Of a DNA stretch of 64,000 bases, positions 16,991 to 42,051 are shown in pieces (position 1 is the first letter of the stretch; the number at the start of each line of letters is the position of its first letter). The position numbers and the translations under genes are program-made. The DNA lies in the IMG/VR virus record IMGVR_UViG_3300044997_001199, positions 62,001 through 126,000 of that record; one strand, given 5' to 3'. Under the pieces are notes generated by a model. It saw nothing but the letters and a program-made list of their open reading frames with translations, ran no database searches and was not told where the DNA came from. This stretch comes from a virus.

Positions 16991-17185
16991 TTACTGGTCA
17001 TTGTAAACTAGTGCCTTGGTATTGTCAACAATAATGACGCTCATTTTTGATCTAGAGGTGGCGAAACCTTTGATCAACACAGCAGCCGCGCACACGGCCC
17101 CAAGGTATGTTCAATGTGGTGAGTATGGAACCCGCGGAAGATCGCGTCCATCATCGTCGGGCAACACAGGATACGGGTATTCCAT
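16991..17185 (-). pseudogene. Small membrane-type ORF broken by an in-frame TGA
   Basis: An ATG overlapping the preceding stop (TGATG at 17185) opens a frame of 64 codons before TAA, interrupted once by TGA at codon 25 (17111-17113). The first part reads MEYPYPVLPDDDGRDLPR. The part after TGA has a hydrophobic segment TYLGAVCAAAVLIKGFA, then a polar tail ending KALVYNDQ. The same frame on both sides and the membrane-like second half suggest a real small gene hit by a nonsense change, or readthrough. TGA is a normal stop elsewhere here. Chance remains possible for so short a frame. Confidence 0.35.
17000..17028 (-). promoter_or_regulatory. Near-consensus sigma70 promoter before DsbA-like gene
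   Basis: TTGACA (17023-17028), exact 17-bp spacer, TACAAT (17000-17005). The ATG of the DsbA-like gene is about 20 nt after the expected start site. This is the best host-type promoter in the window and probably drives early expression of the DsbA-like and polymerase genes. Confidence 0.7.
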
Positions 17186-18156
17186 CAACGTTCTTCCACA
17201 TAGTCCGCAGTGCTGTTGCCTCGATCACGGCGCTGGCGATAAAGATCCACGGCCATCTGGGCATGATCAAGGTTGGGAAAACGTGTGGGTAAACTGCGAC
17301 CTCCGCGACGTATTTCAAACCCACGCAGTTGATCACCGTGTATTTCTAACACCGACCCATTTTCCAGTGTAATGCTTTTGACTGCTGCTGGTTCTGACAT
17401 CGCAGAATCCTGTATGGATGCAGGCGGAAAAGTGGTCATGGTATCCACAGCAGTGGGATCTTGGTCCACGGTTTTGTTGTGCTTGGGTAAGAGAGCACAA
17501 TCTTTCTGTACCTTTTTTTCTAGACGATCAAGGTACTGGGTGAGATCGCGTTTGACTTTTGACAGCATGTCTTCTTCGATTTCTGCGATGGCTTCGGCCA
17601 GACTTTGCTCACGCACCCAGGGATTGTCTACTGGACGGCCCAGAGGTTCGGTGGGTCTCGGGTCTGGTATCGCACCACCCCATGAACCTGATTTGAAATA
17701 ACTGCTGGTATCCACTGGTTTCCAATCTGTAGTTACTTTGACAATGTTTCCTGGGTGATGGCGTTTGAACACACTCAATGCTTGATCAACTTCATCTGTG
17801 GTGATGTTGAGTTTCTTTGTACTGCCATCTCTATAGTGCGCAGTCCATAAGTAAGTTTCACCTGACTCATTGATATTGCTTTTGCCTTCATCTATGCTGA
17901 TTTCTTTAGCATTTAAGGCTTTCACTTTTTTTAACATATCTTTTTTATTGCCTTTATCAATTATTTTTTTACTTGAAGAATGAACAACCGCATACGTTGT
18001 AGATTTTGGAATTGCTTCATCAAGTTCTACTTTGTCTGATGACATATCAGCCAAATCGTTAAAAAATGCTTTCTTTTCTTCTTTCTTTTTTTTGTCAGCA
18101 GCAGATTCTTCTATGCTGCGTATGACATCCAGGAGTTTTCTTAGATCGTTTTTCAT
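17185..18156 (-). CDS. Long charged phage protein, possibly head-packaged
   Basis: The start MKNDLRKLLDVIRSIEES is chosen because its ATG overlaps the dps stop by 4 nt; an upstream start inside dps is rejected. The protein has 323 residues: a Lys/Glu-rich helical part (15-50), a small domain with DGSTKKLNITTDEVDQALSVFKRHHPG, a coiled-coil-like stretch (KRDLTQYLDRLEKKVQ), and a C-terminal domain ending DLYRQRRDRGNSTADYVEER. The leader resembles other short leaders between 18 and 29 kb. Function unknown; a capsid-internal role is inference. Confidence 0.6.
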   Translation of the reverse strand: MKNDLRKLLDVIRSIEESAADKKKKEEKKAFFNDLADMSSDKVELDEAIPKSTTYAVVHSSSKKIIDKGNKKDMLKKVKALNAKEISIDEGKSNINESGETYLWTAHYRDGSTKKLNITTDEVDQALSVFKRHHPGNIVKVTTDWKPVDTSSYFKSGSWGGAIPDPRPTEPLGRPVDNPWVREQSLAEAIAEIEEDMLSKVKRDLTQYLDRLEKKVQKDCALLPKHNKTVDQDPTAVDTMTTFPPASIQDSAMSEPAAVKSITLENGSVLEIHGDQLRGFEIRRGGRSLPTRFPNLDHAQMAVDLYRQRRDRGNSTADYVEER

Positions 18157-18593
18157 GCTCTCTCGTCCTTGAGATAGGATTTCAACATCCAAGCATGCTT
18201 GCCGTGCGCATCAATGCGTTCGGCCAGGAAATTTGCGATGCCCTGTTGATCCTCGGCGTCCGCAGAATCAAAACAGCGATTTAGTAGATCCATCAAGACT
18301 TGATTATCGTCTAGCAGTTCTTGTATCATCAGGCGTGCTCGTGGTACCTTGATTTGTCCCCGGATCACGCTCAGCTCGGTAAAGCGTTCAAATGATCCCG
18401 GAGTGTAGTCATCCAGGGTGCGTATGTATTCTGCAGTGGGGTCCAACGCATCATAGACATCCTGGTATAGATTACCAAAAAATTCATGTAGTTGTCCAAA
18501 GTCAGGACCTTCTACATTCCAGTGGAAAAATTGTGCTTTGACCACGAAAGCATACTGTGTGGCCAACAATTGTTTGAGATCATTTGCGAGCAT
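18153..18593 (-). CDS. dps: Dps-like ferritin-family DNA-protection protein
   Basis: Dps dodecamers oxidise and store iron and shield DNA. The 146-residue protein has the inter-subunit ferroxidase set: H24 in QFFHWNVEGPDFGQLH, H36, D51 and E55 (DPTAEYIRTLD), with exactly the spacing of classical Dps (12, 15 and 4 residues). It lacks the basic DNA-binding N-terminal tail of E. coli Dps. AAGGAAAA precedes the ATG, and a TAAATA box lies 32 nt upstream (18626-18631), suggesting late expression. With the SOD, Fe-S carrier and ferritin-like gene it forms an iron/oxidation set. Confidence 0.92.
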   Translation of the reverse strand: MLANDLKQLLATQYAFVVKAQFFHWNVEGPDFGQLHEFFGNLYQDVYDALDPTAEYIRTLDDYTPGSFERFTELSVIRGQIKVPRARLMIQELLDDNQVLMDLLNRCFDSADAEDQQGIANFLAERIDAHGKHAWMLKSYLKDERA

Positions 18594-18762
18594 TTGATGG
18601 AGTTTTCCTTGGTGCGGCGTTCATATATTTAGTGGAATCCAGCATCCTGCGCTCGATCGCTGCAGCGCCCAGGGGCCGAATCACGGTAGCTACCGAACCA
18701 CTGACAGTGTCACTGACCGTGGCGCCCGGGGATGTTGATTCCAGAATTTCATACAGTCTCAT
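18580..18762 (-). CDS. Small protein with capsid-targeting-like leader
   Basis: The 60-residue protein starts MRLYEILESTSPGATVS; the second of two possible starts (ATG) is used. The ILE-S sequence fits a T4 gp21-type cleavage site (L/I-x-E then small residue). The rest is SGSVATVIRPLGAAAIERR and a Lys/Arg-rich tail, a pattern I recall in small T4-like marine phage proteins. It overlaps the next start by 14 nt. Packaging into the head is a hypothesis. Confidence 0.6.
   Translation of the reverse strand: MRLYEILESTSPGATVSDTVSGSVATVIRPLGAAAIERRMLDSTKYMNAAPRKTPSNARK
18626..18631 (-). promoter_or_regulatory. Late-type TAAATA box before dps
   Basis: TAAATA on the minus strand, 32 nt before the dps ATG; the leader holds AAGGAAAA. 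It lies inside the small upstream gene. Confidence 0.4.
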
Positions 18763-19048
18763 CAAAAATCTCTAGTTCGCCACTGTCAGTGATCCTGCCC
18801 GGTCCGTGGTCAACCCGCCAGTTGGTCAGTGTCAGTGATGCTGTGGTCGGCCTCACTAATTCTCCACGTATCATGTACTTACCTGCTGCAGCGACCACGG
18901 TGAGAGCCTCCTCGAGATAGCAGTTGTGCCAGATCCAGGTGCGTTCGACGAACATTTCGTGCTCCACAAACAGTCTATAGCGTGGAGATTCTTGGGACCA
19001 CTCCATATCTACGTCTACTAGAATTCTCACTGTGTATTTGCGGTCCAT
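18749..19048 (-). CDS. Small beta-rich conserved phage protein
   Basis: The 99-residue protein contains WSQESPRYRLFVEHEMFVERTWIW and ends in a beta-rich LTLTNWRVDHGPGRI part. I recall the YR-x-(F/Y)-V...ERT(F/W)-x-W pattern from hypothetical proteins of T4-like marine phages. Its ATG lies only 5 nt after an AATAAATA box, one of the divergent late-type promoters at 19054-19081. A small structural or binding role is likely but unproven. Confidence 0.65.
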   Translation of the reverse strand: MDRKYTVRILVDVDMEWSQESPRYRLFVEHEMFVERTWIWHNCYLEEALTVVAAAGKYMIRGELVRPTTASLTLTNWRVDHGPGRITDSGELEIFDETV

Positions 19049-19053
19049 AATTG

Positions 19054-19061
19054 TATTTATT
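19054..19061 (-). promoter_or_regulatory. Late-type AATAAATA box, 5 nt from ATG of 99-aa gene
   Basis: Minus-strand AATAAATA, then CAATT and the ATG at 19048. In T4 the late start site is 5-7 nt after this box, so the mRNA would begin at the AUG. Confidence 0.6.
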
Positions 19062-19073
19062 ATAATATTCGCT

Positions 19074-19081
19074 TATAAATA
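19074..19081 (+). promoter_or_regulatory. Late-type TATAAATA box, 5 nt from ATG of radical SAM gene
   Basis: Exact T4 late consensus TATAAATA on the plus strand, followed by ATACC and the ATG at 19087; divergent from the box at 19054-19061. Confidence 0.65.
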
Positions 19082-19086
19082 ATACC

Positions 19087-20127
19087 ATGCTGAAGTTATC
19101 ACAGATACGTCGGGTGCATGTGGAACTGACCACTCGATGCAATGCACGGTGTCCCATGTGTCCTCGGAACTATCGAGGCTATGACTACAATAGCGGTTAT
19201 CCCACAACCGAACTCACTGTGCACGATTTCAGGCACATATTCACACCGGAGTTTTTATCGCAACTTCATCCACCACCGCCGAAGGTATATTCCAATGGAC
19301 ATGTCAAACAAGACTTCCAATTCTATGGCATAAATTTCAACGGCAATCTCGGTGACTTCAGCCTGGCCCAGGATGGCAAAGAAATTGTGCAATATGTGGT
19401 GTCTCATGACGTGGCCGTAAACATAACCACCAACGGACACGCACGAAATGCCGAGTGGTGGCGCGGTCTGGCACATTCCAAGGTCACTGTGGGGTTCGCT
19501 CTGGACGGTCTGGCTGACACACACGCCTTGTATCGCCAGGACACGGACTGGAATCGAGTGATTGCCAATGCCAGTGCCTATATCTCCGCAGGGGGTCGAG
19601 CCATATGGCGATTCATACCCTTTGACCACAATCGACACCAGGAGCAGCAGTGCCAACAGCTGGCCCAGGACCTGGGATTTGAGAGATTTGAAAATATCTA
19701 CGACGGACGGGATCGTGGTCCGGTATACACACGAACCGGAGAATTCAGTCATTGGATCGGTCCGGTGGGAGAACCCGAGAAGTATATCCCTCACGTGAAA
19801 GATCTGTTAGAGAGTCATCGAACTTGGTTCAACATCGAAAAGGATACCAGGGAACTTAACATCGTGTGTGAACACAAACGTCAACGAGAAATCTATGTCG
19901 CAGCTGACGGATCGGTATGGCCCTGTTGTTTTCTTGGCTATTACCCCGGGCAGATGCATCATGCTGGCAACGATCAATTGTTGCCTTTGATTCACGAAAA
20001 CAATGCGCTGAAATATGATCTGTCACACTGCATGCAGTGGTTTGACCGTGTGGAACAAACCTGGCAACAAGACAGCATCGCCAACGGTCGTCTGTATCAT
20101 TGCGTGAACAGTTGTAACCGAGTCTAA
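19087..20127 (+). CDS. Radical SAM enzyme with SPASM-like C-terminus
   Basis: The 346-residue protein has the radical SAM cluster motif CNARCPMC (C18, C22, C25), followed by [15 protein letters not shown] and [13 protein letters not shown] (SAM-binding strands). The C-terminus has extra cysteines in [28 protein letters not shown] and HCVNSCN, as in SPASM/twitch domains that bind auxiliary clusters. SPASM enzymes mature peptides or modify sugars and proteins. It is the only plus-strand gene in the first 40 kb. A full TATAAATA box ends 5 nt before its ATG. The substrate is unknown; small neighbours on the other strand are candidates only by position. Confidence 0.88.
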
Positions 20128-20933
20128 GCCTGTCCTACTATGCGTTGTCGATACACATCGGCAATTATCTGTTGTCCATCCGGTCCGGAATGATATCCTG
20201 GATCCTGTCCTGGGAACGGATGATTGCCGCAGATACGCAGTATGCTACAGGGTTCGTCGACCATGATCAATCGATCAGGGATCACTGTGGATATCACATC
20301 ACGCCATTGTGTCTGACTCTTGTTGGAATCCCAGGGCCAGAGTAAGACTGGAACCAGCAAAAATTCAATGCCAGCATGGAACAGTTCAAAAATTCCACTC
20401 TGAATGATCCACTCATCCTGTTGCTTTTTCCACTCGGAATCATAGAGTCTGTCTATGTAGTGTTTCACTGCTCGTCGGACTTCCTTGTTGATCAGTCCTA
20501 ATCGGTAAGGATGCGGATAATTTTCTGCCAGCGTGAAAATAGTTTCACAGATCATGTTGTAGTTGTTGTTACCGTAGTTGACATTGTCGATACCATCTTG
20601 TCTACGGTAGCCATTTTTGATAGTACGATCCTGGAGATGTTTCTGTATGTCGGGTGCCCATCCGTTGCAACTCCGAGACCAGTCGAACGGTGCCGCACGT
20701 GCAGGTATTTCCATGCGATCCCAGAAAGTGGGGGTGATAATGGCAAAATCGGGTCGTTGTCTTAGTATTTCGTCGATCTGTATGCGGATACCGCCATTGC
20801 TGCAACCTTGCCGCGCCAGGTTGGTCAGTTTCCAGCCTAGCTGTTGGGTCAGCAATTCGCTCCATGCAGTGCCTGGGTGTGTCTGGCTCACCGCACTGTA
20901 ACTGCAACCCGCAACTATAAGATGTTTGGGCAT
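20124..20933 (-). CDS. SGNH-hydrolase-like phage protein
   Basis: The 269-residue protein starts [33 protein letters not shown] sits where SGNH hydrolases have GDSxS, and [16 protein letters not shown] corresponds to the block II glycine and block III asparagine. The C-terminal [24 protein letters not shown] has the D-x-x-H-like ending. The nucleophile position is a serine within a non-canonical block, so catalysis is plausible but unproven. It converges with the radical SAM gene with a 4-nt overlap. Possibly acts on glycans or phage-specific sugars. Confidence 0.65.
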
Positions 20934-21061
20934 GATTTTTCAAAATCGTCTGAGTGGACTGGTACACGGCATGGCCATCGATCCATGGAGTTTTCTGTGA
21001 TACCGTGATTACACAGTGCAACAACCATGATCCAATCGGCGCGGTCTAAGCCTCGAATCAT
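20915..21061 (-). CDS. Small 48-residue protein
   Basis: The gap between the SGNH-like and DUF6492-like genes holds an ATG ORF of 48 codons starting MIRGLDRADWIMVVALCNHG. Its ATG overlaps the upstream stop (ATGA), and its stop falls 19 nt inside the next gene. The short hydrophobic helix WIMVVAL is followed by a polar tail. Start coupling supports a real gene. Function unknown. Confidence 0.5.
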   Translation of the reverse strand: MIRGLDRADWIMVVALCNHGITENSMDRWPCRVPVHSDDFEKSCPNIL

Positions 21062-21897
21062 AGATCATGCCCTGCCACGATGTTGTGATCGATGAGATAC
21101 ATCACGAACTGTGTGCGCTGCTCGGCAGTGAGTCGAGCCCAGGCTCTGCGATGTATGCTGACTGAGGTAGTAGTGGGATGCTGCATCTCGGCGATCTTGC
21201 GATCAAACGCGTCAACTTCGCTGTGACAGATATTCACTGGATACACTGCAGTGTCGGGACAATAAAGACTGTCCAGGCTCTGATATCGATACTGCACATA
21301 GCCCGAATACAACACAAATTCAGTGAGTCGACCCTGAGCCTGAAACCACACAGGGAAACTCTGTCGAGTGCGGACGGTGGTTTCGGCGACCATGAATCTC
21401 ACAGTGTCGTTGTGCAGAAAAAAAGGAACTCCACCGGGGCCCAGCTGTTGTGTCATGGTGATATCAAACAGTTCCTGGGTGATCTGTCTGCTGGGCTCAA
21501 ACACCGGATACAAAGGAACACGGCCGCTGCGTATACGACCAGTTTGATCTATCAGCTCGGTCAGCAGCATTGGTCGCACCAGGATGGTCTTGGCATCCAG
21601 TATCATGGTATAAACATTGTAACTCATGGTAGCAGCCAGCAGTTTCCACAGTTGCTGGCTGACCCAACCGTTGTCTGACCACGGCGTGGAAAAAGCTGAC
21701 CTGGGCACAACTACCACACAGCCAGCCAGCGGTCCCCACCAGGCTGGATCTATGTCACGGATCACGGTTTCGTCATCGTTGACCACCACATAGATATTGC
21801 GCACACTCAGCCCGAGACCGTAAAGGCCCACACTCTGGGCCTGAGCGCGTAACACTGGAATCTCGTCGCGGAATACCACTGTGCAGATATCAATCAT
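21058..21897 (-). CDS. Glycosyltransferase-like protein (DUF6492-type)
   Basis: The 279-residue protein starts MIDICTVVFRDEIPVLRAQAQSV, with NIYVVVNDDE and later YTMILDAKTILVRP, which matches the DUF6492 pattern (GT-A-like with a DAK block) as I recall it. NGWVSQQLWKLLAA is another block of that group. There is no membrane segment. Sugar transfer is the likely role by fold; the acceptor is unknown. Confidence 0.65.
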   Translation of the reverse strand: MIDICTVVFRDEIPVLRAQAQSVGLYGLGLSVRNIYVVVNDDETVIRDIDPAWWGPLAGCVVVVPRSAFSTPWSDNGWVSQQLWKLLAATMSYNVYTMILDAKTILVRPMLLTELIDQTGRIRSGRVPLYPVFEPSRQITQELFDITMTQQLGPGGVPFFLHNDTVRFMVAETTVRTRQSFPVWFQAQGRLTEFVLYSGYVQYRYQSLDSLYCPDTAVYPVNICHSEVDAFDRKIAEMQHPTTTSVSIHRRAWARLTAEQRTQFVMYLIDHNIVAGHDL

Positions 21898-21915
21898 AAA
21901 CTTATATATTGAGCA

Positions 21916-22101
21916 TTAGGATATGCGTTGTATATTTGATACCAGACTGCCATCTCCGTACTGAGCCCGTATCAGTTGACGAGCCATAAACGCGTCTCGG
22001 GCAAACACCGTGATCTCAGTGACATTGGTATAGCCCGGGTTCTTGACTTTCACGCGGGCACTGAATACCTGGAAACCTTTGAACACCTCGGTGATTTTCA
22101 T
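21916..22101 (-). CDS. Small conserved phage protein
   Basis: The 61-residue protein starts MKITEVFKGFQVF, chosen because its ATG overlaps the preceding stop (ATGA). The block ARVKVKNPGYTNVTEITVFARDAFMARQLIRAQYG, read in two parts, is a pattern I recall from T4-like marine phages. It has a short leader like its operon neighbours but no basic tail. Function unknown. Confidence 0.65.
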   Translation of the reverse strand: MKITEVFKGFQVFSARVKVKNPGYTNVTEITVFARDAFMARQLIRAQYGDGSLVSNIQRIS

Positions 22102-22460
22102 TTGGTACGGTTGCCCCAGTTCTTGGCACCTCGCTTGCGACATTGGACCAGCGCACCTGATGCATAGGCCGAAGGCCATACCTTGTAACGGCTTCGCACC
22201 TTGTGATAGCAGGCATCTTTTTTTTCTGTCACGGGCTTGACACGTACCAGCTCGGTGCCACCCACATATTGAAATCCCATGTCAGTGAGTTCTTGATACA
22301 GGTCCTGTATGCGCTGACGCAATCTGACCGCCGATGGGCCAGACTGTTCTGCTTCTATCATCTGACCGAGATCGTCAACGGCACGATCGAGATCCTGGGC
22401 GATGGATTTTGCTGTGTTGACATCAGCAACCGTTCGACTGACAAATTCGTGTGCTCGCAT
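22098..22460 (-). CDS. Leader plus basic Cys-module protein, likely virion-packaged
   Basis: The 120-residue protein has three parts: leader MRAHEFVSRTVADVN, a helical middle (about 20-75), and a basic C-terminal module KKDACYHKVRSRYKVWPSAY followed by ASGALVQCRKRGAKNWG (about 80-120). I recall this module in several hypothetical proteins of T4-like marine phages. Two cysteines and about a dozen Lys/Arg suggest nucleic-acid binding. The leader is like T4 capsid-targeting sequences. The ATG overlaps the next gene's stop by one base (TAATG). Confidence 0.7.
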   Translation of the reverse strand: MRAHEFVSRTVADVNTAKSIAQDLDRAVDDLGQMIEAEQSGPSAVRLRQRIQDLYQELTDMGFQYVGGTELVRVKPVTEKKDACYHKVRSRYKVWPSAYASGALVQCRKRGAKNWGNRTK

Positions 22461-22723
22461 TATTTTTTCTTCTGTGTGGCCACGTTTCGTGCAGCACCAC
22501 GACGATTGGGATCAGGATCCTGCCTGCGTTTTCTTGCGGCAGCCGAGGCTCGGACTTTTTTGCCAAGTGCATAAGCCTTGGCCCGAGGTAGGCACTTGGG
22601 TTTGCCTTCCCGATCCGACCCACGAGCACATGGGCCCATAATTTTACCTTGCGGGTTGAAACGTACCCACTTTTCTTGGAACCATTTTTTAAGATCTTCG
22701 ATCACAAACTCACTGGCGCGCAT
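22460..22723 (-). CDS. Leader plus basic Cys-module protein, likely virion-packaged
   Basis: The 87-residue protein starts MRASEFVIEDLKKWF; VIE-D resembles a T4-type prohead protease site. It then has EKWVRFNPQGKIMGPCARG, GKPKCLPRAKAYALGKK and a very basic Ala/Arg-rich tail ending ATQKKK. The pattern G-x-C-A-R...G-K-P-K-C-L-P recurs in T4-like marine phage proteins as I recall. Its ATG follows a CTAAATAC box by only 4 nt, so it is probably late and leaderless. Head packaging and DNA binding are inferred from leader and charge. Confidence 0.7.
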   Translation of the reverse strand: MRASEFVIEDLKKWFQEKWVRFNPQGKIMGPCARGSDREGKPKCLPRAKAYALGKKVRASAAARKRRQDPDPNRRGAARNVATQKKK

Positions 22724-22727
22724 CGAG

Positions 22728-22735
22728 TATTTAGC
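22728..22735 (-). promoter_or_regulatory. Late-type GCTAAATA box, 4 nt from ATG
   Basis: Minus-strand GCTAAATA, then CTCG and the ATG at 22723 of the basic Cys-module protein. Confidence 0.55.
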
Positions 22736-22750
22736 ACCAGTGACCGATCG

Positions 22751-23290
22751 CTAGATCTGATAGATTTCGGCCAGTTGTTGGATCACATTATCCACGCTGT
22801 GCTCACGATACAGGATAGCCTGCCCCCCGGCTTCGCGCCAGCGTTTAACGTTTTGCTTGAAATCATCTATTAGGATGGCAGGAACACCCTTGCGGTTGGC
22901 GAAGCGTTCTTTCATGCCTGTGAAAATCGCTGCACCTGCAGTGCCAGGGTTGTGCTTGTCCAACCACTGCAGTTTTCCTGCGATACTAGCATCGTGATTG
23001 CCTCGCAGGGGTGCGCTGAGAATGGTAAAAGCGATGTCGTGATCCGTTAGCCAGCGCACTAGGAGCGTACCTCCGGGCATCACTGGTAAGTTGGCAAAAA
23101 ATTCCTGGATAAATTCTGGACCGCGTTGATTCAGTTGATCAATGCTGGCCTCGCGAGCCGCACGATCTCCGATATCTTTGTATAGATTTTTTCCAGCGAT
23201 GTTGGCCCAGGCAGTAAAAAAATCAGACTGCACTCCGTCCATATCAAGATAAAGATGTGGCGGGTCGTTGACAATTTGGTTGACTTGCAT
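22751..23290 (-). CDS. HAD-family 5'(3')-deoxyribonucleotidase-like phosphatase
   Basis: The start is the ATG at 23290 with AGGAAA 5 nt upstream, not an earlier in-frame start at 23347 without a ribosome site. The 179-residue protein has LYLDMDGVQSDFF (D16, D18, the HAD nucleophile and acid), TILSAPLRGNHD as the Ser/Thr motif, and AILIDDFKQNVKRW as the terminal Asp pair. Length and motifs fit NT5C-type enzymes that dephosphorylate dNMPs. It has its own sigma70-like promoter (23319-23347), suggesting early expression and a nucleotide-pool role. Confidence 0.8.
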   Translation of the reverse strand: MQVNQIVNDPPHLYLDMDGVQSDFFTAWANIAGKNLYKDIGDRAAREASIDQLNQRGPEFIQEFFANLPVMPGGTLLVRWLTDHDIAFTILSAPLRGNHDASIAGKLQWLDKHNPGTAGAAIFTGMKERFANRKGVPAILIDDFKQNVKRWREAGGQAILYREHSVDNVIQQLAEIYQI

Positions 23291-23546
23291 GGTGTTTCCT
23301 ATTTTGTTTGCTAACTGTATTGTAGGCAAACACCAATCATCGGTCAACCAAACATGGTTAGGTCCACAGCGAGCGCTGTATCTGGATCAAGCGGATCATC
23401 ATTTGTTCATTATTATTTTTTTGTCAGTGCCTCCGAGACTTTTCGGAATTATATGGTGTACCCCTGCGTACCCGGATAGTTCTCTATCCAGAGTTCTTTT
23501 ATGATTCTATAATAAATCTGAGTATACTTGTTGTCCCGCGAACATT
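23291..23546. other. 256-bp non-coding gap with promoter and hairpin
   Basis: I find no credible gene here on either strand. The region holds the sigma70-like promoter of the HAD gene (23319-23347) and a hairpin TCCGA-GACTTT-TCGGA near 23434-23449. A GTACC-type inverted repeat lies near 23458-23474. It is AT-rich toward 23546. I looked for tRNA arms (TTCGAAT-type loops with CCA end) and saw none. Confidence 0.5.
23319..23347 (-). promoter_or_regulatory. Sigma70-like promoter before HAD nucleotidase
   Basis: TTGACC (23342-23347), 17-bp spacer, TACAAT (23319-23324), giving a leader of about 22 nt with AGGAAA before the ATG at 23290. Confidence 0.6.
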
Positions 23547-23777
23547 TTATTTTTTCTTGGCCCGGCCACGACGCATGTTAAGCTGCCACTGAGCCATCCT
23601 ACGCCGTTCTCCTGTGCTGGATTTGGCAATTTTTTCCAGTTGACCTAGTGTGGCCTTTTTAGGTATACCAACTCTACGACTCAGACCTTTTCGTCCCGGC
23701 TTTTTACCATCGGCAAAGTTTTCAACAATTTCTGGGAATCCTGGAAATTTTTCGGAAACTATCTCATTGAATTTCAT
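23547..23777 (-). CDS. Leader plus basic domain protein, likely virion-packaged
   Basis: The 76-residue protein starts MKFNEIVSEKFPGF (ATG overlapping the preceding stop, ATGA). It then has a strongly basic module: GKKPGRKGLSRRVGIPKKAT, LGQLEKIAKSSTGERRRMAQWQ, and a tail LNMRRGRAKKK. I recall this PGRKGL...IPKKA...R-M-A-x-W-x-x-NM pattern in several T4-like marine phage proteins. It looks like a small DNA-binding or protein-docking domain. Together with its neighbours it forms a set of leader-bearing basic proteins. Confidence 0.7.
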   Translation of the reverse strand: MKFNEIVSEKFPGFPEIVENFADGKKPGRKGLSRRVGIPKKATLGQLEKIAKSSTGERRRMAQWQLNMRRGRAKKK

Positions 23778-24433
23778 GATCGTATTAAATCCTTTCTCAC
23801 CAACCACCACCGATGGTCGGAATCATGTTTCTTGAACAGTATATTAATGAAGAAAGCAATGTCTTCTTCATTGACCTCGCTGGGATCAGTGACCTGTTGA
23901 TACTCGGTATCTGCAGACAGTCTATCAACCATTCTTTGATACAGCCGCATGCGATTGTTGGGTTCGTCGCGAGGCACACTGAAGTACATACTGCCTGGTC
24001 GATGTTGGGCAGACCATTGGCGTATGGCTTCGATCACTGTGGCAAATATCCTAAACTCATCGCGCCAATCTGTGAGACTAAAGTCTTGGCCGCGGTCAAA
24101 GGTTATTTTCACGGTTTCCCAAATTGGAGTGCGGTCAAACACTATGTAAAGAGGACGACCTTTGTCGTCCTTGGCCACTGCTTGGTCTGCGAAAATTTTT
24201 ACAGGATACGGACGCTCAAACAGTTCGTTAAGGGGCTGCCAGGACCTGGTCTTTGAACCTCGTCGACCTTTGAATCCCACGCTGCAATTCTTGCCGTGCC
24301 TCCGGGGTTCTGGCATGAGTGTGATGTTGTCTTGTTGTGCCAGACGTTGTAGTTCACGCATGGCTCTGATGCTCGGGCCGTTACGCTGTGGTACAGTGTC
24401 TTCTATTTCTGTGATGAATTCTCTTGCTTTCAT
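23774..24433 (-). CDS. Protein with capsid-targeting-like leader
   Basis: The 219-residue protein starts MKAREFITEIEDTV; EFITE closely matches the T4 capsid-targeting leader MKTYQEFITEA, and I-T-E fits the gp21 cleavage rule (I/L-x-E). A basic Gly-rich stretch KNCSVGFKGRRGSKTRS follows near 48-64, then a mixed domain with IVFDRTPIWETVKITFDRGQ and PGSMYFSVPRDEPNNRMRLYQRM. It is coupled at both ends by 4-nt overlaps. The enzyme class is not recognisable. Delivery with the virion is a hypothesis based on the leader. Confidence 0.6.
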   Translation of the reverse strand: MKAREFITEIEDTVPQRNGPSIRAMRELQRLAQQDNITLMPEPRRHGKNCSVGFKGRRGSKTRSWQPLNELFERPYPVKIFADQAVAKDDKGRPLYIVFDRTPIWETVKITFDRGQDFSLTDWRDEFRIFATVIEAIRQWSAQHRPGSMYFSVPRDEPNNRMRLYQRMVDRLSADTEYQQVTDPSEVNEEDIAFFINILFKKHDSDHRWWLVRKDLIRS

Positions 24434-26691
24434 TTTTTTCGCTCGACAGGCTCTGGCCAGTTGGGTCTTCTACGGGGTAGTTGACTGGGCATGGGCAGTG
24501 CTGGCCCAACTGGTGCTATTTTTTCATCCAGTATCCAGGTATCGGGTATTTCTCCGTGCTTTTTTACCCACATGTCATGTAGTTCCTGACCGGTCAGATC
24601 GTAGGTCTGGGCAATACGCCGCATGATTTTATCTATTCTATCATAGACCTGTTGGTTGGACATTTTGTTCAGTTGAGAGCGGTGCTTTTCCAGTGCGGCT
24701 TTGAGTTCCGGCACTGCATTTTTGCTGTCGCAATGCCGGGATTTATCTGCACGACCAAATTTATTTGTACCACTGTCGGATTTTTCAAGCATGACAGGTT
24801 TGAGTTTGAGATACTGTGGAAACTGTTTGTTAAATTCGCGCATGATCTCTCCAGTAGCCTGATCCAACTTTCTCATGCCACTGCCTTCGCTCACAGGCAC
24901 ACAGTTGGGTACTTGTCGTTGACCCTTGCGTTTTGTGCCTTGCTGGCGGTAGCCGGTCCAACATTTTTCTCTCAGAACCCCGTGTTGTTTGAACTCATCT
25001 AGTGCATTCTGTAAGCCGCTGATCAACAGCGCAGGCATAGTGGGTTTGGATTCAAGACTCGGGGGATGGTCTGGATCATAATCTTCTTGCTGTGGTTCAC
25101 GACTGATAATGCGTGAGGGCAGAGGTCTGGTTCCAGTGGATGTTGAGGGGTCAACCTGCGGTTGTCTGCGTTCCCAGCGATAGATATGACTTTGATTTTG
25201 TGCATTGGCATCGCCCTGTCGAGCACGTAGATAGTTTTTGAGCTCTTGTGTGACTTCTTCCTGCGCACCTGCGGTTCCATAGCGTTCCATGCTCTGCACA
25301 GTGCGACCCAGAGTCTGCACTGTGCGCAGATCCGACATGGTCACGCATCCTGACAGACCAGCGGCCGCACACATGCCAGCGATGGCACGAGCAGTGCCCG
25401 GCGGAATCAGACTCGTGATGTCTTCGTGTAGTTCTTGTCCAAACAGTTCAGGATGACTGTCGGCAAAATCACGCATGATTTTTCCGGCCACAGCGTGAGC
25501 TTCGTCTTCGAATGGCGAGCCGGCACTGCCGGCATCAGTCGGCAACGGTTCAATTTCATGCTGACGGCAGTGTACCAGTTCGTGTGCGGTGGTGCGTAGG
25601 ATATCTAGTAGGTGCCGACCGACCAGGCTCACATGTAGTTCGTGTTGTTCGGGATCATACATACCAAAACTGTGTCGGCGCTCGCTCCAACGGTCGCCGC
25701 GATGTAAAAATATCCGAGGCAGCCGCTGTATCTCCAGTCGGCGGGCAGTGTCTTGGATAAACTGTTTGAGAACCGTGTCGGTGTCAGTCTCGGACAGGAA
25801 CATGTGTGTCGAGGCGCTCACACCGCCGGGCGAGCTCAGTGCAGCTTCTCTAACACTTTCACCGCCGCCGTCGCCGCCGCTGTCGCCCGAGGACTGAGAA
25901 TCGTTGCCAAAAAAAGCATAGCCCGGAAACCAGTAGCCACCGTAGGCCCAACGTTTTCTTGGTTGGGATTTCTTTTTCTTTTTGCGTTCCACTAGACTCA
26001 ATTCTCGGTCCCGGGCCGCACGATGTGCAGAATACAAACGATCGATTAGACCTTGATTGCGCAACAGCTTGAATGCAAGATTTTCTGCACCGAATTCTCC
26101 ATGGTGTGCCAGTCCTGCTTTACGCATGTTCTTGACGGCATCGATCATGGTCTCGAGCCGGGACAGATTGTCCGACTCGATAGCTGCTTCTATCCGATGT
26201 CCTAGATCCTCGTATTTGTGACGTACACTGGCATCATTGATTTCGGCGCGCCGACGTCGTGGAACCGCTCGCCACTCCTGATCACGTACCGAATAGATGC
26301 CCTGACTGACATGAGGTTCGGCGGCATCCTGCACATAGAGTTCAACTTCGTGTGGACCTATGCGTATGTTGTGTTCGTCGTTGAACTCATATTTTTTTGC
26401 CGAAAACAGTTCGCGGTATACCACGTTGTTGGGCATGTTCACGACCAGATGTAGATCCACATCGGAATGATCGGTATAGTTGTAGGCAGCATTGCTACCG
26501 CTCACTGTGATGTCTTGGATTTCGAGATCGTCTACGCCCAGAAACTCGCGAAAATTATCTGCTATGGTCAGCAGAGCCTGCCGTACCCGGGGATGTAGAT
26601 GCTCATCCGGTCCCCAAAGGACCGGATTGAGCTGATCGTGAAATTTTACCGCGTCTGAAAGACGATAGGATTCTAATTCGTTGATATCCAT
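24430..26691 (-). CDS. Nucleotidyltransferase plus HExxH metalloprotease multidomain protein
   Basis: The 753-residue protein has several parts. Residues 55-125: nucleotidyltransferase of the pol-beta type, with SGSNAAYNYTDHSDVDLHLV (GS at 65-66, acids D77 and D79). Residues 236-265: Lys-rich linker and aromatic-Gly stretch. Residues 310-410: zinc-metalloprotease-like, with HELVH at 370-374 and acids EDE at 395-397 as possible third ligand. Residues 575-600: basic Cys module KCWTGYRQQGTKRKGQ...PNC. The C-terminus is helical and basic. It has a CATAAATA box 5 nt before the ATG inside a perfect inverted repeat. It may be a virion-delivered enzyme; activities are inferred. Confidence 0.75.
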   Translation of the reverse strand: MDINELESYRLSDAVKFHDQLNPVLWGPDEHLHPRVRQALLTIADNFREFLGVDDLEIQDITVSGSNAAYNYTDHSDVDLHLVVNMPNNVVYRELFSAKKYEFNDEHNIRIGPHEVELYVQDAAEPHVSQGIYSVRDQEWRAVPRRRRAEINDASVRHKYEDLGHRIEAAIESDNLSRLETMIDAVKNMRKAGLAHHGEFGAENLAFKLLRNQGLIDRLYSAHRAARDRELSLVERKKKKKSQPRKRWAYGGYWFPGYAFFGNDSQSSGDSGGDGGGESVREAALSSPGGVSASTHMFLSETDTDTVLKQFIQDTARRLEIQRLPRIFLHRGDRWSERRHSFGMYDPEQHELHVSLVGRHLLDILRTTAHELVHCRQHEIEPLPTDAGSAGSPFEDEAHAVAGKIMRDFADSHPELFGQELHEDITSLIPPGTARAIAGMCAAAGLSGCVTMSDLRTVQTLGRTVQSMERYGTAGAQEEVTQELKNYLRARQGDANAQNQSHIYRWERRQPQVDPSTSTGTRPLPSRIISREPQQEDYDPDHPPSLESKPTMPALLISGLQNALDEFKQHGVLREKCWTGYRQQGTKRKGQRQVPNCVPVSEGSGMRKLDQATGEIMREFNKQFPQYLKLKPVMLEKSDSGTNKFGRADKSRHCDSKNAVPELKAALEKHRSQLNKMSNQQVYDRIDKIMRRIAQTYDLTGQELHDMWVKKHGEIPDTWILDEKIAPVGPALPMPSQLPRRRPNWPEPVERKK

Positions 26692-29784: not shown

Positions 29785-30429
29785 TTATTTAGTCTGTATG
29801 GGCATGGTCTTTCGGATTAGACCAGGCACAGCCAGGCTCAGCAATATTAGATCCCCCTGATCATAGTGATCTACGAAATAGTAATTTCTGATATAATGTT
29901 GTCGACTTTTGAAAATATGCTGTTGTAGAGATTGGCTTGGACGGTATCGATCGGCGTTCGATTCGAGAAAGTTTTTCAATGTCTGAGATTCTCTGGGATC
30001 CAGATATCGTTCGCGAAAAAAAGTCCTGAATCCATACCGAGATCGTTTTTTAATCACCACACCTGCTGGACGATCCAGCGTGACCTTTCCGGCCCACAGA
30101 CAGACCACGTTTGTCTGAGAAATCACAGTGGTCAAAAACACTGGGTCATTGGAATAGAGATAGAGATAGTCTATCTGACAAATTTTTTTGAATGGGTCAG
30201 TACTAGCCAATAAAAGATCGCACAGCTGATGCATTCGTTTGACTCGATCCTCGTCGATACGATGGCGATTCCAGGGAAAGCCGATGCAAGTATTTCGATA
30301 CAGCACCATCTCATCTATGGCATTATGGTCCAGTTGTCTGAGAACGCACACATCAGGAACATAACATCGTATGCCACAGAGGTATCGATTGAAATATAGT
30401 GAGCTGCGTGATTCGGGCCTAAATTCCAT
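29785..30429 (-). CDS. Conserved-type hypothetical phage protein
   Basis: The start MEFRPESRSSLYFNRYLCG is chosen over an earlier frame position inside clpA. The 214-residue protein has YFNRYLCGIRCYVPDVCVLRQLDHNAIDEM near the N-terminus and a Leu-rich C-terminal LILLSLAVPGLIRKTM. I recall YFN(R/D)Y...LR.LDH proteins of T4-like marine phages without assigned roles. It overlaps the clpA stop by 11 nt. No catalytic motif is visible. Confidence 0.6.
   Translation of the reverse strand: MEFRPESRSSLYFNRYLCGIRCYVPDVCVLRQLDHNAIDEMVLYRNTCIGFPWNRHRIDEDRVKRMHQLCDLLLASTDPFKKICQIDYLYLYSNDPVFLTTVISQTNVVCLWAGKVTLDRPAGVVIKKRSRYGFRTFFRERYLDPRESQTLKNFLESNADRYRPSQSLQQHIFKSRQHYIRNYYFVDHYDQGDLILLSLAVPGLIRKTMPIQTK
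29786..29793 (-). promoter_or_regulatory. Late-type ACTAAATA box, 7 nt from ATG
   Basis: Minus-strand ACTAAATA, then ATCTGCT and the ATG at 29778 of the 55-aa protein; the box overlaps the TAA stop of the upstream gene. Confidence 0.55.
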
Positions 30430-32695
30430 TGTCTCTGGGCGGCAACTGAATGACGTTGTAGGACTGAGCATGATTCACTGGGTCGATATCAAAGATCACT
30501 TCGTTGTCCAGCATCCTGGCAGTGACCGAACAGTTTTCTAGCTGATCAAACAGGATGCGACGGCTCAGTGGTACTCGGATCAGTTCGTCGATCTTTCTGC
30601 TCAAGGGCCGTGCTCCCATCTTGTGATCATAGCCCTTTTCGGCCAGATAGTCGATCACTGGCTCGGTCAAGGTCAATCGTATTTGACGACCGGCAAGACT
30701 GGTCTTGAGATCTTCTACGAACTTGACCACAATCTTCTTCACTGCCAGTTGATCCAATTTCCGGAACTTGCAAATCTGGTCGATGCGATTGCGTAGTTCG
30801 GGACGGAAAAATTCTCGTAGCGCACGATCTTCTTCGCCGGTCTTTTCCAGATCCGATGAAAATCCAATGTTGTTGTTTTCGTTGTCACGAGCACCAAGAT
30901 TGGAGGTCATGATGATGATACAGTTTTTGACATCCACTCGCTTGCCATTGTTGGAACTGACATGTCCTTCGTCCAACATCTGCAGCAAGATGTTAGTGAC
31001 ATCCGGGTGTGCTTTTTCGATTTCATCAAACAGCAGCACCGCGAACGGATTTTTATTGAGATCGCTGATGAGTTTGCCACCGCCCACAGTGCCATCTTCG
31101 AAACCAACATAGCCCGGAGGTGCACCGATGAGGCTACTCAAGGTATGACGTTCTTGATATTCGCTCATGTCGTAACGCAGCATCTTCATGTTGAGATTTT
31201 CCGCCAGTAGTTTGGCCAACTCAGTCTTACCTGTGCCCGTGGGTCCAAGAAACAGGAAGCTGGCCATGGGTCTGGTAGTAGGGCCGATGCCCGCAAAGTT
31301 GATATACACTCGTTCCAGCACACGATCCACGACATCGTCCTGTCCGTAGAGTCTCTGCTTGATGTTGCTTTCGAGATCAACGATCTTGGCACTGCGCTCG
31401 TTCTGCAATTTGTCTGTGGGAACTCCGCACACTCTTGTGACCTGTTCCTGGATCATGGCACGAGTGATCGTGACATTGCCCTGATCTTTTACACGTTCTC
31501 GAGCACAGGCACCGTCCAGGAGATCGATGCTCTTGTCGGGATTTTTGCGATCATGCATGTAGCGAGTGGCATATTCCACTGCTGCAGTCATGGCCTCGGT
31601 GTCGATCATGACATTGTGAAACTGTTCCAGGCGCGGACTGAGACCAATGAGTATCTGTTCTGTGGTCGCAGCATCGGGTTCGTCGATGCCCAGACGATAG
31701 AATCTGCGCATGAGTGCGCGATCCTTTTCAAACGACTCGTGATATTCTTCCCAGGTAGTGGATGCAATGACCTTGAGATTGCCGCGGGTGACCGCTGGCT
31801 TCAACATGTTGGCAAAATCAAGATTGCTGTTGGAACCCGAGCCTGCACCGCGCATGGTGTGTGCTTCGTCGATGAACAACACACACTTTTTTTTGTTTTC
31901 CAGTGCTGCTATGACCAATTTGAACTTTTCTTCAAATTCGCCGCGGTATTTGCTGCCGGCCAGCAAGCTGCCAACTTCGAGTCCCCAGACTTCGTGGTCT
32001 TTCAGAAACTCTGGTACTCGACCGGCCATGATTTCCTGTGTAAGGCCTTCCACGATGTGTGTTTTGCCCACACCGGGGTCGCCTACCATGAGCACATTGG
32101 CTTTGAATCTGCGAGCCAAGACCGTGATCATTTCTTGCAGTTCGTGACCGCGACCGATCATGGGCTCGAGACGATTCTCTGCAGCCATTCCTGTGAGATT
32201 GGTGCAGTATTCGTTGAGTATCTCTGTGGCCTGACTGGCAGTCAACTTGGCAGTGTTTGATCCTCGGTCGTAGGTTTTGGTCCAAAAATCCACGAACTCA
32301 TTTTTCTTGACACCATACTTGAGCAAGAAATAGTGAGCATGACTGTTGGTTTCGCTCATGATACTGAGATAAAGATCGGCCGTGGTCAGGTTTCGCCGTC
32401 CGGTAAACATGGCCTGCACATTGGCGCGATTGAAGATGCGTTCCAGTGTCTGAGTTTTTTTGGGCTGGAAATCTTCTGAGTTTTTGACCAGGCCCGCCAG
32501 GCTGTCGATATAGGCTTCGATTTCTATATCCAACAACTCGATTTCCACTCCAAATTTTTCTAGAGTTTTGCGGAACGGTTGATAGCGTATCAGAGCCAAC
32601 AACAGGTGCTCAGTTAACACATATTCATGCTGTTTGTTGCGAGCAATCTTGGTAGCTTCTTCGACGATGGCTTCGATTTCGTGGTTCGGGTTCAT
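30419..32695 (-). CDS. clpA: ClpA-type AAA+ unfoldase
   Basis: ClpA hexamers unfold proteins and feed them to ClpP. This protein has 758 residues, the same as E. coli ClpA. It has a Clp N-domain (1-140), AAA-1 with GDPGVGKT (205-212) and VLFIDEAH (272-279), and AAA-2 with GPTGTGKT (484-491) and LLFDEIEKAH (554-563). The ClpP-docking tripeptide is kept as IGF at 610-612, in the loop where ClpA has IGL, so it could take over host ClpP. A CTAAATAC box ends 6 nt before the ATG. dnaJ lies just upstream. Confidence 0.95.
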   Translation of the reverse strand: MNPNHEIEAIVEEATKIARNKQHEYVLTEHLLLALIRYQPFRKTLEKFGVEIELLDIEIEAYIDSLAGLVKNSEDFQPKKTQTLERIFNRANVQAMFTGRRNLTTADLYLSIMSETNSHAHYFLLKYGVKKNEFVDFWTKTYDRGSNTAKLTASQATEILNEYCTNLTGMAAENRLEPMIGRGHELQEMITVLARRFKANVLMVGDPGVGKTHIVEGLTQEIMAGRVPEFLKDHEVWGLEVGSLLAGSKYRGEFEEKFKLVIAALENKKKCVLFIDEAHTMRGAGSGSNSNLDFANMLKPAVTRGNLKVIASTTWEEYHESFEKDRALMRRFYRLGIDEPDAATTEQILIGLSPRLEQFHNVMIDTEAMTAAVEYATRYMHDRKNPDKSIDLLDGACARERVKDQGNVTITRAMIQEQVTRVCGVPTDKLQNERSAKIVDLESNIKQRLYGQDDVVDRVLERVYINFAGIGPTTRPMASFLFLGPTGTGKTELAKLLAENLNMKMLRYDMSEYQERHTLSSLIGAPPGYVGFEDGTVGGGKLISDLNKNPFAVLLFDEIEKAHPDVTNILLQMLDEGHVSSNNGKRVDVKNCIIIMTSNLGARDNENNNIGFSSDLEKTGEEDRALREFFRPELRNRIDQICKFRKLDQLAVKKIVVKFVEDLKTSLAGRQIRLTLTEPVIDYLAEKGYDHKMGARPLSRKIDELIRVPLSRRILFDQLENCSVTARMLDNEVIFDIDPVNHAQSYNVIQLPPRDNGI

Positions 32696-41499: not shown

Positions 41500-41651
41500 T
41501 GATCATGCACCGGGCTGATTGTTTTCGCTAGCTGTTGTAAATGCTCCAGAAAAACTAGACCGCAATCTCTGTACCTTAGATGCCACATCATAGCCTCCAC
41601 GAACAAATTCTGAGCTTTGCTCTTGTATGGCCTCAGTGTTGTATCAATCAG
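41496..41651 (-). CDS. Small 51-residue protein with non-ATG start
   Basis: Between the SGNH-like gene and the Cys-cluster gene a frame of 51 codons is open: LIDTTLRPYKSKAQNLFVEA, then MMWHLRYRDCGLVFLEHLQQ and a tail ending SPVHDQ. It ends in an ATGA overlap with the next gene. No ATG occurs before codon 21, so translation would start at CTG (41649-41651) or a near codon, or at the internal ATG for 31 residues. The amphipathic helix and coupling suggest it is real. Confidence 0.45.
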   Translation of the reverse strand: MIDTTLRPYKSKAQNLFVEAMMWHLRYRDCGLVFLEHLQQLAKTISPVHDQ

Positions 41652-42051
41652 TTATGGGGCCGCCTTCGACCCAGGCTATGCATGTTCTCTTGGCAGCACA
41701 TTTGAATTTCAAAAACTTACAGTACCCCAGAGTACCAGCATCAATGGTATCGTGCGGATCGGATCCGGCCTCGGATCCGATACCTTGAGCAATACAATCT
41801 TGTATTTTTTCAGTGATGTCAAACGCTGCACAGTTACCGCACCGTGCAGATTTGGCATCATCGAGATCGGACATGTTCCATTCGTCGGCGATCCGGGTCC
41901 AGTATTCTTCATTGGGCTCGTTGGGATTCAATGGACCGTAGTTATACTCATCTATGGCCTTTTTGCGGTTGCGGAGATTGAGATCAATGCTCTGCGTGGC
42001 TGGGGGACAGCCACGCTCTATTGCCTCGAGCAAGTTGATTATGTCACGCAT
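41644..42051 (-). CDS. Conserved phage protein with Cys cluster
   Basis: The start MRDIINLLEAIERG is chosen inside the longer frame. The 135-residue protein has DLNLRNRKKAIDEYNYGPLN, ARCGNCAAFDITEKIQDCIAQG and GYCKFLKFKCAAKRTCIAWV; I recall this whole arrangement from T4-like marine phages. Cysteines in CGNC, DC, YC, KC and TC could bind zinc or an Fe-S cluster. The leader LLE-A fits a T4-type prohead-protease site, so it may be a head-internal protein. Function unknown. Confidence 0.7.
   Translation of the reverse strand: MRDIINLLEAIERGCPPATQSIDLNLRNRKKAIDEYNYGPLNPNEPNEEYWTRIADEWNMSDLDDAKSARCGNCAAFDITEKIQDCIAQGIGSEAGSDPHDTIDAGTLGYCKFLKFKCAAKRTCIAWVEGGPITD

Follow-up and report, generated by a model that had tools for sequence, protein, structure and literature searches.

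Several proteins encoded in the window, a stretch of 64,000 nucleotides (bases 62001-126000 of a 215,330-base viral record), begin with a short common leader, which is most probably (probability about 0.8) a T4-type capsid-targeting signal carried by head-internal cargo or core proteins and cut off by an S77 prohead protease. The source of the window is, by homology, an uncultured T4-like jumbo phage, since the terminase of the record shares 53% identity with its counterpart in the Pseudomonas jumbo phage PA5oct, and the record and PA5oct are colinear across the neck-sheath-tube-terminase block.

The original prediction named seven N-termini of this kind, all of which were found in place as ATG-started frames on the minus strand. 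The leader genes, doubtful members and adjoining genes are listed below in window coordinates (G001 is a relative; ↓ indicates the expected cleavage site).

23774..24433, minus strand: 219-aa protein from an ATG-started frame, leader MKAREFITE↓, C-terminal DUF6934-like domain
23547..23777, minus strand: 76-aa basic protein, leader MKFNEIVSE↓ (MRASEFVTE in G001, in the same gene order)
22460..22723, minus strand: 87-aa very basic protein, leader MRASEFVIE↓ directly before a DLKKWF module (phrog_727/23735)
22098..22460, minus strand: 120-aa protein, leader-like MRAHEFVSR without Glu, C-terminal KDACY-RYKVWPSAYAS module behind VTE↓
21916..22101, minus strand: 61-aa protein starting MKITEVFKG; the canonical leader MRAQEFIAE (MRAQEFIAES) is present on its counterpart in G001
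18580..18762, minus strand: 60-aa protein, leader MRLYEILE↓ (start MRLYEILES)
41644..42051, minus strand: 135-aa Cys-rich protein, leader variant MRDIINLLE↓ (start MRDIINLLEA)
24430..26691, minus strand: 753-aa multi-module protein heading the run of leader genes, a candidate precursor without canonical leader
22751..23290, minus strand: 5'(3')-deoxyribonucleotidase with the leader-like extension MQVNQIVND, a doubtful member
17185..18156, minus strand: 323-aa protein MKNDLRKLLDVIRSIEES, possible leader variant (MRDLLNLLDNILTES type), a doubtful member
18153-18593: Dps-like ferritin gene (by sequence) adjoining the leader genes, with a possible role in DNA protection

In the 753-aa protein, a nucleotidyltransferase-like N-terminus is combined with a CWxGY module and with a stretch resembling HExxH metalloproteases (TAHELVHCRQHE); the counterpart in G001 has 1,396 aa. 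For the 219-aa protein, the AlphaFold model has a mean pLDDT of 43, the alignment of its domain family is highly divergent, and a search of IMG/VR with exact peptide patterns from the full protein found no relatives. The start MRLYEILES of the 60-aa protein resembles MRAQEFIKEN of relatives, and its mature part resembles the expected N-terminus of the mature capsid protein (GATxSGSVATV). Together with L213 and L223, it belongs to a set of tiny proteins (60-66 aa) in which the leader is followed by such a capsid-like N-terminus, as if by mimicry.

The pattern M-(K/R)-x-x-E-(F/I)-(I/V/L)-x-E was matched by 6 of 276 predicted proteins of the whole 215-kb record. By chance, a mean of 0.01 (maximum of 1 in 2,000 shuffles) was expected when residues 2-16 were shuffled and 0.03 upon column permutation, and none of 1,055 internal methionines was followed by the pattern. 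Out-of-sample matches weigh more, because the pattern had been derived from part of the tested sequences. Two of the six matches lie outside the window (genome 27175, MRAREFIAE; genome 27546, MRAREFIRE), and a relaxed pattern was matched 8 times among 380 in G001 (shuffle mean 0.37), twice among 99 in G003 (0.04) and by none of the 157 genes of G002. The order of the leader genes is conserved in G001. The relaxed match at genome 74263 (MRDYLLDLVEH) was discarded as a false positive, because PA5oct gp170 shares it as the start of a domain. The leader observation is confirmed by these counts.

A scan of IMG/VR at the DNA level, using a degenerate pattern that encodes MRAxEFIxE, gave at least 95 reading frames from related uncultured phages. 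Among the 95 matches listed, the median length was 129 aa with two frames under 40 aa, and the mature parts fell into at least 21 clusters without detectable similarity (BLAST, E 1e-4). Among the same listed matches, the leader codons are scattered (GCA 41, GCC 26, GCT 23 and GCG 5; ATC 33, ATT 33 and ATA 29). Because synonymous codons vary freely, selection appears to act on the leader peptide and not on the DNA. A conserved DNA or RNA element overlapping the start codon, such as a late promoter or a ribosome site, was therefore rejected and is hardly credible: a late-promoter-like TAAATA does lie 10-11 nt before two leader genes, but it is also found ahead of many genes lacking a leader, and synonymous leader positions change while the amino acids are kept. 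In the record as a whole, about 16 of 278 genes, against 0.26 expected, have the T4-late-promoter-like TAAATA 10-13 nt ahead of their ATG, e.g. at window positions 22723 and 26691 (minus strand). With this spacing, transcripts would start at or beside the start codon, and the genes concerned possibly give leaderless late mRNAs.

At the leader end, the strict motif (I/L)-x-E is present in MKAREFITE, MRLYEILE and MRDIINLLE, and V-x-E takes its place in MRASEFVIE and MKFNEIVSE. The final Glu is missing from MRAHEFVSR and MKITEVFKG, i.e. two of the seven named proteins are without a recognizable cleavage site. In T4, the corresponding sequences are MKTYQEFIAEA (ipII and ipIII), MAKINELLRES (gp24) and FLTE↓AEIGG (gp23). 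The capsid proteins of the jumbo relatives read YLKE↓NASAGST or FLVE↓NASAGAT, where the maturation site was deduced from T4, and the small leader proteins read FIKE↓NASVGAT or FIKE↓TASAGAT. Leader end and expected capsid site thus look interchangeable.

To avoid circularity, relatives of the 87-aa protein were fetched using its mature part alone. The N-termini recovered were MRITDVITE↓KCWKGY, MRASEIITE↓KCWKGY, MRAEEFITE↓DLKKWF, MRYQEILE↓ACWTGY, MKIAELLSE↓RCWKGY and similar ones. In 17 non-redundant, unrelated contexts before the DLKKWF module, P1 was Glu in 16 (binomial 1e-18) and P3 was L, I, M or V in 16 (binomial 8e-10). In 16 of the 17 contexts, the site (L/I/M/V)-x-E↓(D/N) precedes this module, whether a leader or another module stands in front of it; for the KDACY module, Glu was found at P1 in 7 of 11 cases. 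A common start inherited through gene duplication and devoid of a targeting role was rejected as very unlikely. There are neighbouring leader genes and a few paralogous ones (three in tandem in Vibrio phage D479), but nine leader residues stay fixed while the mature parts fall into the dissimilar clusters described above, and one and the same module is swapped behind different leaders or modules with the site ahead of it in nearly all cases.

In cyanophage S-RIM50, a 582-aa protein fuses three modules which are separate in the phage of the window, and the next gene starts with MKSYNEFISES. The conservation of the site at module junctions suggests that some of the precursors are head polyproteins. 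More broadly, T4-like jumbo phages and cyanophages may make head polyproteins from each of which, within the capsid, the prohead protease releases several small peptides that are basic or contain Cys, with leader and junctions acting as a portable packing code for swapping injected cargo; we consider this wider proposal tentative, its chances falling slightly short of even.

Pfam searches of the record for gp21, gp20 and gp23 gave no match, nor did any S77, portal or capsid model. This does not indicate true absence, because the contig ends just past the capsid gene. A gp21-like protease, which the original prediction had proposed to look for elsewhere in the genome, was found as an S77 protease on a sibling contig (G011), not in the record of the window. 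G011 is 99.97-100% identical to the record over about 30 kb (29.7 kb) and runs past its end. Its head genes follow the T4 order, i.e. capsid, scaffold, S77 protease (214 aa), core proteins and portal, so the protease sits between the core and scaffold genes. The protein was matched by the S77 family (E=2.2e-24), the structure of T4 gp21 (5JBL, E=1.8e-13) and the head maturation protease family phrog_207 (3e-55). It aligns with T4 gp21 over about 140 residues only and is a distant homologue, in which the catalytic His and Ser motifs are kept (NHPP/DHPD and GVSSRG, i.e. HP and S-R-G). Every relative with the head cassette in its record has an S77 protease within a few kb of a T4-type portal.

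PA5oct gp212, named ‘head maturation protease’ in RefSeq, is ClpP-like by sequence and not gp21, and this name looks like a misannotation. The gp212 homologue of the phage itself (genome 134283-134870) was set aside as a gp21 candidate. ClpA-, ClpP-, ClpS- and DnaK-like phage proteins, identified by inspection and by their homology to annotated proteins of PA5oct, are encoded at window 30419-32695 and at genome positions 134283-134870, 148693-148998 and 149561-151423.

Instead of the head, the leader might direct proteins to another phage structure or a host compartment (tail, membrane or replication site). This is unlikely, as the leaders are without a hydrophobic signal-like stretch, their site matches the expected site of the capsid protein itself, and the protease is encoded among head genes. 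What had been claimed originally, T4-like targeting with gp21-type cleavage, is well supported in so far as a short leader is found on many otherwise unrelated cargoes, an S77 protease is encoded in the same virus, and the (I/L)-x-E context is common to leader end, capsid site and module junctions, all of which can be read from the sequences; for the proteins beginning MRAHEFVSR and MKITEVFKG, the cleavage part of the claim is not supported.

In PA5oct, a relative of the 219-aa protein (gp135), whose leader is loose (MHLFELFDQIE), is tagged as a structural protein by ESI-MS/MS, as are the relative gp282 and the leader-type proteins gp333 (MKINDIITE, adjoining the portal) and gp246 (MKIKDILVE). 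The pattern fits two of 228 PA5oct genes and both encode virion proteins, an association between leader and MS detection that is not significant (Fisher p=0.12). Within the phage collection, the 219-aa domain has relatives in large T4-like phages of Vibrio and Pseudomonas and in no others; among their starts are MRAxEFITE, MEFRTFLTEA, MNDFKQFMVEA, MKTLQTYMVEA and MKFEQFMES. In Vibrio phage F86 (L358), such a relative adjoins an annotated Alt-like RNA polymerase ADP-ribosyltransferase. Alt is a known head-packaged protein of T4.

The closest known system is that of T4 IPII and IPIII (MKTYQEFIAEA, removed by gp21), with which the present proteins share a short charged leader containing EF(I)xE and ending, in some of them, in (I/L)-x-E, its placement on unrelated proteins, and an S77 protease. 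In contrast to T4, MRAxEFIxE dominates among the matches listed, V is allowed at P3, the cargo families are far more numerous (at least 21), some precursors carry the same site between modules, and targeting is predicted from sequence. The inner-body or ejection proteins of phiKZ and SPN3US are likewise head cargo of jumbo phages and are processed by a prohead protease, their N-terminal propeptides being cleaved behind an x-E motif. Several of those propeptides exceed 100 residues (PMC5694885), whereas the leaders described here have 8-9 residues, in T4 style. In P1 DarB, the N-terminal 30 residues are enough to direct cargo into the head (PMC9024508); this signal is also N-terminal and head-targeting, but belongs to another virus lineage and has another leader sequence. 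In the literature searched, mainly open-access papers, no description of such a leader was found outside T4, P1 and SPN3US.

T4, in which leaders guide proteins into the prohead and are removed by the protease (PMC3012670, PMC9958956, PMC5694885), serves as the model for the mechanism. Here, the leader would bring the protein into the prohead core before DNA packaging. The gp21-type S77 protease would then cut after (I/L/V/M)-x-E, and the mature protein would be left inside the head. Where relatives string modules together with a site at each junction, one precursor could give several head peptides. We infer that the proteins of the window are targeted, cut and located in the head. The internal proteins of T4 offer an analogy that makes injection of the cargo along with the DNA plausible. 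It is also possible, though we rate it clearly below even odds, that the proteins enter the head, are processed and remain there as scaffold, core or DNA-condensing proteins instead of being injected as effectors. Retention is favoured by the small size and strongly basic character of several mature parts (the 87-aa protein has 24 K+R and 6 D+E, the 76-aa protein 20 and 5) and by gp22, gp67 and gp68 of T4, core proteins which are degraded (PMC9958956). Against this, the leader cargoes of relatives include many that are larger and look like enzymes or effectors (weak GNAT acetyltransferase hits; sequences kinase-like by eye), and in T4 the internal proteins bearing leaders of this type are injected (PMC3012670).

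For the majority of proteins from uncultured giant phages, no function is known. If the leaders are T4-type capsid-targeting signals, a feature readable from sequence would single out those that are packed into the head and perhaps passed on to the host upon infection, the moment at which counter-defence proteins are expected. The leader would also point to the cutting rule of the protease and to head polyproteins.
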